The position numbers were made by a program, and so were the translations under genes. The notes under the pieces are model-generated. The model was not told the DNA's origin, ran no database searches, and worked only from the letters and a program-made list of their open reading frames with translations. Below are positions 1 to 11,301 of a DNA stretch of 16,959 bases, one piece after another. Source of the DNA: Actinomycetota bacterium (lineage in GTDB: Bacteria; Actinomycetota; Actinomycetes; Nanopelagicales; Nanopelagicaceae); assembly GCA_947490605.1 (NCBI GenBank), contig CANLHE010000003.1:1-16959 (forward strand), written 5' to 3'. The first letter of the stretch is position 1. Each line of letters begins with the position of its first letter.

Positions 1-227
1 CCTTCATTAATTTCACGAAGTGCGATTGATAATGGTTTCTCGTGAACATAGGTCTCAACAAGTGTGCCAACATATTCAAGTAAACCCTCGCCAAGTTGTG
101 AATAGTACGCATTAATCTGACGAGCACGCTTTGCTGCATAAAGAACCAAACTATATTTTGATCCAGCTTTTTCAAGCAGTGCATCAATAGGTGGGTTAGT
201 AATACCGTCTAGTGCTTGATTGGTCAT
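1..227 (-). CDS. rpoZ: RNA polymerase omega subunit, C-terminal end cut by window edge
   Basis: The reverse strand opens with MTNQALDGI and continues in frame for 75 codons to the window edge, with no stop. The reading matches the omega subunit: an N-terminal [17 protein letters not shown] segment, an AAKRARQIN helix (the RpoZ signature around the conserved Lys-Arg-Ala-Arg), a low-complexity middle and a final [12 protein letters not shown] helix. Omega binds the beta-prime subunit and helps core RNA polymerase assemble. The ATG at 227-225 follows an AAGGGG ribosome binding site about six bases upstream. It lies 27 bases downstream of the guanylate kinase stop, and no promoter is evident in that gap, so it is probably the tail of the same transcript. 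The gmk-rpoZ order is common in actinobacteria. Only the last few residues and the stop are missing. Confidence 0.93.
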
Positions 228-254: not shown

Positions 255-1121
255 TTAGCGAAGGGCTAAAGATACCAGTTCAGCCACTGATTGCTCTACT
301 TGATGGTTAATCAGTACATGGTCAAACTCAGAGGCCGCTTGTAGCTCTTCTTTCGCCCGATCTAGGCGGGCTTGGGTGGAATGCTCAGATTCAGTGCCTC
401 TATTTATCAACCTTGAAGTCAATTCCTCCCAGGAAGGCGGTTCAATAAAGACCAAAATTGCACTCTGTTTGTTTTTTCTAACCTGACGTGCACCATTTAA
501 TTCAATCTCTAAAATTACATTCTTACCGTCCAATAATGCATCCTCAACTGCTTGTTGTGGTGTTCCGTACTTCGCTCCAGCAAAACTAGCCCACTCTAGA
601 AATTCATTCTTCTTAATCATTTCATCAAACTTCTCATCGCTAACAAAATGATAGTCCACTCCATCAACCTCACCAGTACGCATTTTTCTTGTTGTGGCAG
701 AAATTGAAATCAAAAAACGATCATCACTTCTTAATTTATTTGTTATTGTGCTTTTGCCTACACCGCTAGGTCCAGAAACAACAAGTAGGTTTCCGCTTTT
801 GCGAGAGTTTTTCATCAGTAGAAACTCCTGCCTTAGTAGGTCTAGCTGTCTATGCCCAACACCACCAATTCTACGCGATGGTGAGATGCCAGTTCTTTCC
901 AAAATCACATCAGCTCTGGATTGGCCGATACCTGGCACTGATTGCAGTAAATCAATTAATTTCATACGGGCGATGGCTTTGCGCTCATCTTTAAAAAGGT
1001 CAAAGAAATAAATCTCACCTAGTGCAACCTGTTCCTTGACTCTTGCTCGTTCCTGCCTGGCGATTACGGCTTTTAGCCCAGCTTTTCTCCGAGAACGCCG
1101 GCTTAATCTAGGTGGCAACAT
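255..1121 (-). CDS. gmk: Fused actinobacterial integration host factor (mIHF) and guanylate kinase
   Basis: One uninterrupted frame carries two proteins that are usually separate neighbours. Numbered from the ATG at 1121, residues 1-102 are an mIHF-type nucleoid protein: MLPPRLS start, basic helix RQERARVKEQ, then the H2TH DNA-binding part with LLQSVPGIG, RADVILERTGIS and SRRIGGVGHRQ. Residues 103-288 are guanylate kinase (GMP to GDP with ATP): P-loop GPSGVGKST at 117-125, GMP-binding SATTRK and EVDGVDYHF, then EWASFAGAKYGTP and LEIELNGARQV. The usual LEID Asp is Glu here. The kinase part alone is 186 residues, a normal Gmk length. The frame can be extended to a TTG at 1151, but that would overlap pyrF by 29 bases; the ATG at 1121 sits one base after the pyrF stop and matches the mIHF family start. 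A strong internal ribosome binding site precedes the kinase Met, so free Gmk is probably also made. A single-base indel or sequencing error could also create this fusion. Confidence 0.9.
   Translation of the reverse strand: MLPPRLSRRSRRKAGLKAVIARQERARVKEQVALGEIYFFDLFKDERKAIARMKLIDLLQSVPGIGQSRADVILERTGISPSRRIGGVGHRQLDLLRQEFLLMKNSRKSGNLLVVSGPSGVGKSTITNKLRSDDRFLISISATTRKMRTGEVDGVDYHFVSDEKFDEMIKKNEFLEWASFAGAKYGTPQQAVEDALLDGKNVILEIELNGARQVRKNKQSAILVFIEPPSWEELTSRLINRGTESEHSTQARLDRAKEELQAASEFDHVLINHQVEQSVAELVSLALR
813..830 (-). promoter_or_regulatory. Internal ribosome binding site and ATG for stand-alone guanylate kinase
   Basis: On the reverse strand CAGGAG is followed nine bases later by the ATG at 815-813, which begins MKNSRKSGNLLVVSGPSGVGKS, exactly where an ordinary Gmk starts. 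This is one of the clearer Shine-Dalgarno sequences in the window, although it lies inside the longer mIHF-Gmk frame. Shifted by one base, the reading contains TGATGA overlapping this ATG, which is how two formerly separate, overlapping genes would look. Confidence 0.75.
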
Positions 1122-1122
1122 A

Positions 1123-1815
1123 TCAGCCAAGAGTACTGGCGATTTGTTCAATCTTTTTTCGCATGTTTAAATCAGAGCCATCCCACAGTGAGGTAATTGA
1201 TCTGCCAATCACAACCAGATCAGCTCCGGCAGATATTGCTTGGCTAGGTGACATTATCCGTGCCTGGTCACCAGCAGCATCACCTTCAACTCTTACTCCA
1301 GGAGTTATTAAGGTGGCGGTGCTAGATAAAGTGCGAAGCGCACCTACTTCAAAGGGAGAACAAACTAACGATGTTGCCCCAGATGAAAGTGCCATCTGCG
1401 CCCAGCTCTTTGTTGTTTCTTCAATACTATTTTTTTGGCCCATGGCAGCAAAATCAATCTCTGAAAAAGATGTTAAAACTGTAACTGCAGTTATTGACCC
1501 ATTTGGAAGTGCATCTACAGCTGCCTTAATCATTTTATTGCCACCAGCAGCATGGACAGTTAAAAACTTTGGCGATAAAGATGACACAGATTCCACTGCT
1601 CCTTTTACAGTATTTGGAATGTCATATAGCTTGAGATCAAGAAATAACTCAAATTCACACTCACCTCTTAGCTTTTCAATCCCTTGTGCGCCATGACGTA
1701 AATAAAACTCCAAACCAATTTTGAAATGGCTTATTGATTCCTTAGAAGCTTTAATCCAGCTAGCGGCTTGAGCAACATCCTTTGTGTCGAGTGCGAGAAT
1801 TATTGGTAGTTTCAC
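1123..1815 (-). CDS. pyrF: Orotidine 5'-phosphate decarboxylase, short (type 1) form
   Basis: This is a 230-residue TIM-barrel enzyme that decarboxylates OMP to UMP, the last step of de novo pyrimidine synthesis. Visible motifs are LALDTKD at the first strand, FKIG with Lys32, the catalytic DLKLYDIPNTV stretch with Asp60, Lys62 and Asp65, VHAAGG, TVLTS, the phosphate loop TPGVRVEGD and the final VIGRSI. The start is GTG at 1815-1813, overlapping the pyrD TAG by one base (TAGTG) behind a GAGGT ribosome binding site. The stop lies one base before the mIHF ATG. The length and DLKxxDIPNT form correspond to the short bacterial type (as in E. coli or Bacillus); high-GC actinobacteria such as Mycobacterium and Streptomyces usually carry a longer type 2 enzyme. 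Confidence 0.96.
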   Translation of the reverse strand: MKLPIILALDTKDVAQAASWIKASKESISHFKIGLEFYLRHGAQGIEKLRGECEFELFLDLKLYDIPNTVKGAVESVSSLSPKFLTVHAAGGNKMIKAAVDALPNGSITAVTVLTSFSEIDFAAMGQKNSIEETTKSWAQMALSSGATSLVCSPFEVGALRTLSSTATLITPGVRVEGDAAGDQARIMSPSQAISAGADLVVIGRSITSLWDGSDLNMRKKIEQIASTLG

Positions 1816-10851: not shown

Positions 10852-11301
10852 ATGAATACACATAACCCAGCAGACAGATTACGAATCATTAGAAAATCAA
10901 AAGGGTGGAGCTTGCAAGATGTTGAGCGAAACTCAAACGGAAAGTGGAAAGCAGTAGTTATTGGATCTTATGAGAGATCAGACCGATCAATCTCACTTCG
11001 CAAGGCAATCTCCCTCATGGAGTTTTACCAAGTACCAATAAGTGAATTATTTCCGGAGATTTCACCAGAGGCCAAGGCTAGAAGTATTTCAATCAACCTG
11101 GTGAAACTAGCAGATGATCAAAGTATCAACTCTGAAAGTTTGCGCAGATTTACAAAGTCAATTGGCGATCGACGTAAGGATTGGAATGGCAAACTTTTAA
11201 CAATCAGAGCAAATGATCTGCAGTTTCTTTCCCTGCTTTTAGGCTTAAATGAATCAGCTGCCTTGGACTATCTAGCAGAGGCGGATCTACTAATCTCCTA
11301 A
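10852..11301 (+). CDS. bldD: BldD-family transcriptional regulator with c-di-GMP signature
   Basis: This 149-residue protein is the only plus-strand gene. Residues 8-68 form an XRE-type helix-turn-helix (ADRLRIIRKSKGWSLQDVE, WKAVVIGSYERSDRSISL, YQVPISELFPE) that matches Streptomyces BldD closely. The C-terminal half keeps NGKLLTIRANDL and, importantly, Arg108-x-Asp110, then eight residues, then Arg119-x-x-Asp122, the motif BldD uses to bind tetrameric c-di-GMP and dimerise. It is shorter at the C-terminus than the 167-residue Streptomyces protein. The location between nusB/efp and pyrR is the conserved bldD position in actinobacteria. The start ATG lacks a ribosome binding site, suggesting leaderless translation. 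Its stop overlaps the convergent nusB stop by four bases. Targets cannot be read from this window; autoregulation is known for Streptomyces BldD. Confidence 0.92.
   Translation: MNTHNPADRLRIIRKSKGWSLQDVERNSNGKWKAVVIGSYERSDRSISLRKAISLMEFYQVPISELFPEISPEAKARSISINLVKLADDQSINSESLRRFTKSIGDRRKDWNGKLLTIRANDLQFLSLLLGLNESAALDYLAEADLLIS

Follow-up and report, generated by a model that had tools for sequence, protein, structure and literature searches.

The window, the whole stretch of 16,959 nucleotides analyzed here, comes from an actinobacterium of the family Nanopelagicaceae (contig CANLHE010000003.1). Close to its beginning, the minus strand carries a series of genes in which a single open reading frame (ORF) combines the actinobacterial integration host factor (mIHF) with guanylate kinase (Gmk). 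The relevant features are as follows.

3607-2750, minus strand: gene resembling the electron-transfer subunit of dihydroorotate dehydrogenase (below the model cut-off)
2747-1815, minus strand: pyrD (profile match)
1123..1815, minus strand: pyrF (NF001273, 210.1 bits)
255..1121, minus strand: mIHF-Gmk fusion ORF, 288 aa with an ATG start (ORF reading of the sequence)
822..1121, minus strand: mIHF domain, residues 1-100 (NF041260 and PF22525; PDB 4itq/6bek and 6tob by sequence)
825..829, minus strand: AGGAG, Shine-Dalgarno (SD)-like site of the internal start, which includes the Glu99 codon GAG (827-825)
813..815, minus strand: internal ATG (Met103), proposed start of a free Gmk of 186 aa
801..812, minus strand: flexible hinge, residues 104-107, pLDDT below 50 (AlphaFold2, 24-row alignment)
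273..791, minus strand: guanylate kinase domain, residues 111-283 (PF00625, TIGR03263 and Foldseek)
750..773, minus strand: P-loop GPSGVGKS, residues 117-124 (sequence)
3..227, minus strand: rpoZ (RNA polymerase omega), partial, directly downstream of the fusion (TIGR00690, 68.3 bits)

The TGA of pyrF (1125-1123) is followed, after a gap of 1 nt, by the ATG of the fusion. No SD-like run was seen by eye just upstream of this ATG, a promoter and terminator scan over 200-1300 returned 0 sites, and Rfam gave nothing at gathering score over the window. An alternative TTG at 1151 would make the fusion longer by 10 residues (the 298-residue form). The start at 1121 is favored, since 118 of the best 120 homologues (of 7997, with 8000 candidates scored) are exactly 288 aa long; the outliers are P0007 (275 aa) and P0065 (287 aa). 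Elsewhere in the window, a BldD-like regulator (10852-11301, plus strand; 127.6 bits, below the cut-off of 250) lies between pyrR and nusB on the opposite strand.

The initial annotation described an mIHF protein joined in frame to Gmk with no stop in between, leaving the strand unstated, and this was borne out by both the Pfam and the NCBIfam domains: the 288 codons read from 1121 to 255 contain mIHF at residues ~1-100 and guanylate kinase at ~109-288, with 0 intervening stops. In the Pfam search, which used the 298-residue form, H2TH_5 (PF22525) covers residues 46-100 with 58.3 bits (cut-off 27) and Guanylate_kin (PF00625) scores 177.4 bits (cut-off 25.2). In the NCBIfam search, actino_IHF (NF041260) scores 81 bits against a cut-off of 60 over model positions 3-101 of 102, which places the domain in the family, and guanyl_kin (TIGR03263) reaches 231.5 bits against an equivalog cut-off of 160.45, together with the P-loop. 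A stand-alone protein beside gmk, another mark of actino_IHF, is found neither in the window nor in the 21 mIHF-bearing genomes of the genus, all of which carry the fused form. Since NF041260 is a model of the equivalog_domain type, the mIHF domain stays in this family despite the fusion.

The AlphaFold2 model consists of two confident domains and a low-confidence hinge placed directly after the internal start (mean pLDDT 88.3, pTM 0.60). Foldseek matches the Gmk half best to the Gmk of Mycobacterium tuberculosis (1z8f/1s4q/1znw), and the best 50 of 1423 matches are Gmk in every case. The fold of the mIHF half is assigned by sequence comparison, in which the nearest solved structures are SCO1480 (4itq) and mIHF (6tob). 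Within the P-loop, G117, P118 and G120-S124 are invariant in the 24-row alignment and S119 is variable. Both the mIHF part and the Gmk part are under purifying selection, with dN/dS values of 0.00-0.14 in each domain (obtained from 11 of 16 pairs for mIHF and from 11 of 16 for Gmk).

The fusion was initially presented as a departure from the separate genes usual in actinobacteria, and an indel or base-calling error at the joint was to be considered first. The fusion itself is real; what did not stand is its exceptional status. Both Pfam domains are present in all of the best 120 homologues, in agreement with the predicted architecture of roughly 290 residues, and the junction is uninterrupted in 21 loci of other assemblies that are 97 to 52% identical, and likewise in three relatives (L149, L151 and L152) in which the contig carrying it measures 1.16-1.24 Mb. 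A sequencing error is thereby excluded. Among the 38 loci obtained from a scan of the species genomes, both domains share one frame in 21 (L001-L021; L018 is interrupted by a contig end), and 17 are without mIHF. The genome nearest to the window, G001, is 97% identical, and mIHF occurs in 21 of the 25 genomes of its genus, one copy each and always fused (the copy of G103 is cut by a contig end). The four remaining genomes contain neither domain, probably because they are incomplete. A single gmk over the cut-off, always within the fused frame, occurs in 20 of the 25; the exceptions are G032, with an extra weak match of 19.6 bits, and G103, where it is in two pieces. A second, free mIHF was not found in any of 13 genomes searched for it, nor in the 21 mIHF-bearing genomes of the genus.

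At the level of the order, mIHF was found in 149 of the 151 genomes searched, and judging from the length of the open frame it is fused in 127 of the 149 (two of them cut short). The remaining 22 have a short frame of 105-154 aa. The extracted loci agree with this division: 40 long-frame loci (L113-L152) are all fused, and all 22 short-frame loci (L073-L092, L186 and L187) are separate. Thus, fusion is the rule in the genus and prevails among the sampled genomes of the order, and further cases are found in other parts of the class. In particular, 18 fused loci from other clades of the class (L093-L110), placed on separate branches of the tree, likewise encode mIHF followed by Gmk as a single frame; the Gmk of ~300 aa in Microbacteriaceae such as Leifsonia is presumably of the same kind.

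The main tree contains 157 rows, 90 fused and 67 separate, and the fusion label needs at least five changes on it, four of which are forced by supported branches. The fused rows comprise the window clade (21 loci) with five sister rows (26 in all), a second clade of 29 (c2), a third clade of 17 (c3), a distant group of 16, and a pair (L093 and L097); the distant group and the pair sit among the class-level outgroups. In a more careful tree, built from 65 of the 97 rows that represent the order, two changes are needed within the order. A single clade of all fused rows in the order is not rejected (p-AU 0.145), nor is the union of the window clade and c2 as one clade (p-AU 0.317), so that either one fusion followed by fission or repeated fusion would fit. 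In at least six genomes, the separate mIHF and gmk share a frame and are divided by one stop codon (TAG in G130, G139, G523, G533 and G540; TAA in G127), so that a single mutation would suffice there for fusion or fission. Among the extracted loci, such one-frame pairs with a single stop are L183, L184, L185 and L089 (TAG) and L090 (TAA), and in the four TAG loci an ATG follows the stop immediately.

The initial annotation also pointed to a ribosome binding site and an ATG at the boundary of Gmk. Both are there: CAGGAG occupies 830-825 and the ATG 815-813, with a spacing of 9 nt between AGGAG and ATG. The protein sequences alone are misleading about its conservation: residue 103, Met in the window, is replaced by Ile, Val or Ala in relatives, with Ile in many homologues, and the conservation of the start becomes visible at the codon level. 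In the 21 loci of the window clade, codon 103 is ATG in 11 and ATT, ATC, ATA or GCT in the other 10, and all of these 10 carry TTG, a legal start, at codon 102; TTG at codon 102 is found in only one of the 11 loci with ATG at 103. The SD-like site is AGGAG or AAGGAG in 19 of the 21, GGAG in L005 and AGGA in L002. In c2, 26 of the 29 loci have ATG, GTG or TTG at the equivalent two codons; of these 26, seven have only a 3-nt match to the SD and two have only GTGA.

The start-codon test compares the two codons at positions +3 and +4 from Glu99 with an expectation calculated from the residues and the codon usage, in the window clade, c2 and c3; the sister rows L138, L144, L188, L190 and L191 and the 16-row distant fused group were left outside it. 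The window clade has start codons in 21 of 21 loci against 13.0 expected (nominal P 1e-7), and c2 in 26 of 29 against 12.0 (nominal P 2e-10), both at a position chosen post hoc. After thinning to divergent loci (4-fold-site divergence above 0.3), the counts are 17 of 17 against 10.6 (P 3e-6) and 24 of 27 against 11.6 (P 3e-9), respectively, and among the loci without Met alone they are 8 of 8 (expected 1.6) and 17 of 20 (expected 4.6). Note that these P values are post hoc, because the position was chosen after the sequences had been seen; hence the column ranks and the result in c2 are given more weight.

In the ranking of columns, with controls that share the phylogeny of the tested site, the column of the internal start is first of 25 Leu columns in its use of TTG in the window clade (10 of 10 loci without ATG), and in c2 it is first of 32 Leu columns for TTG and first of 23 Val columns for GTG. 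Glu99 is encoded by GAG in 95% of the loci in the window clade and in 97% in c2, which ranks joint first of 14 and first of 9, respectively. The internal start is the sole pair of adjacent codons to reach at least 47 of 50 loci while no single column exceeds 34. An independent-pairs test had no power, with only two supported pairs. On these counts the SD-like site and the start codon are under selection beyond that on the protein sequence, with the position picked post hoc and with a 7-codon scan for synonymous conservation in which the junction falls outside the eight highest-ranking windows of both clades.

The third fused clade serves as a negative control: only 3 of its 17 loci have a start codon there, against 2.0 expected. 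The absence of enrichment in c3 indicates that free Gmk is not required by fusion as such. The sister row L138 of the window clade also has no such start, and L144, L188, L190 and L191 have longer, different linkers; therefore, the site was either lost in these rows or arose twice.

The reading that we consider likely is a bifunctional mIHF-Gmk fusion with selectively kept internal initiation of free Gmk. The neighboring mIHF and gmk genes are joined into one conserved gene, and translation from 1121 would give a 32-kDa protein with the mIHF/H2TH DNA-binding domain, a short flexible hinge, and an intact guanylate kinase. With the ribosome-binding site and start of gmk retained inside the fused frame, ribosomes would also begin at 815-813 and produce a free Gmk of 21 kDa, so that the fusion would be the sole supply of mIHF and the internal start would provide extra kinase. 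We infer from the sequences that initiation takes place at the internal site and that the products bind DNA and have kinase activity; tethering may also be of benefit. By analogy with the mIHF family, the fusion would bind DNA and carry the kinase along. The Gmk half is presumably active, since 20 genomes of the genus have no other gmk over the cut-off.

An unlikely alternative is that the locus yields the 32-kDa bifunctional protein alone, the joint having kept its SD-like site and start codons as leftovers or because the protein dictates them. The maintenance of the fusion in c3 without enrichment of the site is compatible with this, as are the invariance of Glu99 as a residue in the 24-row alignment and the 7-codon scan, which passes over the junction. 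However, the median 4-fold-site divergence between loci of the window clade is 0.64, so a leftover should decay, and the start codons instead persist by switching among ATG, TTG and GTG as the residue changes. It is also quite improbable that the mIHF half has decayed to a mere N-terminal extension of Gmk with no role in DNA binding, a proposal that is in itself compatible with the internal start. What suggests it is the low mIHF scores of the window clade (81-90 bits) and the distant fused group (56-81 bits), compared with up to 152 bits in separate genes, and position 86 (codon 866-864, minus strand; after RR-x), at which each of the 83 fused rows checked has Gly, Ala or Gln. None of these 83 rows has Arg there; among separate rows, Arg is present in 10 of 25 from the order and in 28 of 42 from the outgroup. 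Nevertheless, the scores overlap, in that some separate genes have only 72-86 bits and c3 fusions have up to 136 bits. The mIHF part also retains its low dN/dS, a mean net charge of +8 to +11 in the fused clades, and its basic residues (R11, R22, R25, K29, R83 and R84, together with G87 and G89, are conserved in 21 of 21 rows of the window clade), and no mIHF other than the fused copy was found in the genus.

Two further proposals deal with the joint itself. The internal SD might make ribosomes pause and so give the mIHF domain time to fold ahead of Gmk synthesis, which would suit its location at a domain boundary with a hinge; a pause, however, has no need for the conserved element, the start codon lying 6 or 9 nt further downstream, and we regard this proposal as very improbable. 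Hardly credible is a frameshift, either programmed or due to sequence error, with mIHF truly ending at the +1-frame TGA at the joint. The claim that removing one base would create a TGA overlapping the gmk ATG is formally true, and a +1-frame stop does occur within codons E+2 to E+5 in 20 of the 21 loci of the window clade, with an SD-like site upstream of it. Against this, the open frame is conserved in relatives, and a sequencing error cannot recur across 21 loci; moreover, the +1 stop is largely a by-product of ATGA or TTGA, c2 having it in 15 of 29 loci as opposed to a start codon in 26, and no slow zero-frame codon is seen.

The known stand-alone counterparts help to place the fusion. The mIHF of M. 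tuberculosis (Rv1388) and the sIHF of Streptomyces coelicolor (SCO1480) resemble the window domain over residues 3/4-100, including the H2TH part; however, they are stand-alone proteins of about 105 aa, whereas the window domain occurs solely at the N-terminal end of Gmk, with Gly instead of Arg at position 86. Similarly, the best structural match of the kinase, M. tuberculosis Gmk Rv1389 (1s4q and 1znw; 46-47% identity, TMt 0.88-0.89), has no mIHF domain, whereas the Gmk of the window carries mIHF on its N-terminus. According to an excerpt of PMC6155035, mihF directly precedes gmk and rpoZ in M. tuberculosis, and its deletion needed gmk-rpoZ to be supplied. The layout of a full-length and a short C-terminal product is reportedly shared with internal-start genes such as HrcQ/SctQ. 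Unlike in those, the two parts of the window gene correspond to individual genes of an operon in relatives, and its short product is predicted to be a complete housekeeping enzyme. Among the literature matches listed, in which papers with both terms were judged by title and the start of the abstract, there was no account of an mIHF-Gmk fusion, and a term search of PMC4255298 gave neither 'guanylate kinase' nor 'fused'. The JGI annotation of such fused proteins is 'guanylate kinase'. Thus, because JGI names such proteins and NCBIfam treats actino_IHF as a domain model, the architecture is already present in databases.

Gmk is a housekeeping enzyme that makes GDP, and forcing it into one chain with mIHF creates a problem of stoichiometry, to which the conserved internal start looks like an answer on the kinase side. 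In these tiny freshwater bacteria, the fused protein and free Gmk are probably both made. Lineages in which the fusion has the start, those in which it lacks it, and sisters that have a single stop between the domains form a natural experiment on why operon neighbors fuse and on how bacteria keep separate dosage after fusion. As a speculation that we think improbable, the ratio of full-length fusion to free Gmk might set the folding of the chromosome: the fusion might form multivalent DNA-bridging oligomers, which would be capped when free Gmk made from the internal start joins them. Such oligomers are conceivable because bacterial Gmk can self-associate (oligomeric Escherichia coli Gmk entries are among the Foldseek matches) and recombinant mIHF-80 is reported as a homodimer in an excerpt of PMC3724605. 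If this were true, GTP synthesis and any binding of (p)ppGpp or GMP to Gmk would feed directly into nucleoid structure, beside rpoZ, and a metabolic enzyme would act as a nucleoid protein in small freshwater bacteria.

Two observations concern the ends of the locus. The peak of synonymous conservation of the whole gene lies at the 3' end of gmk (264-281, last codons, minus strand; z 5.9 and 6.2 in the two clades), where the conserved stretch is CTGGTATCYTTRGC with variants, seen by eye also in separate genes and in clade c3. This stretch looks like a putative extended -10 promoter (TGGTATCCT) for rpoZ within the coding sequence of gmk; a generic sigma-70 scan found nothing at this site. At the other end, several of the separate-gene and clade-three loci (L083-L091 and L113-L127) show, by eye, TTTAAT or TAGATT as a box located ~6 nt upstream of the ATG of mIHF, an arrangement that would suit leaderless transcripts.
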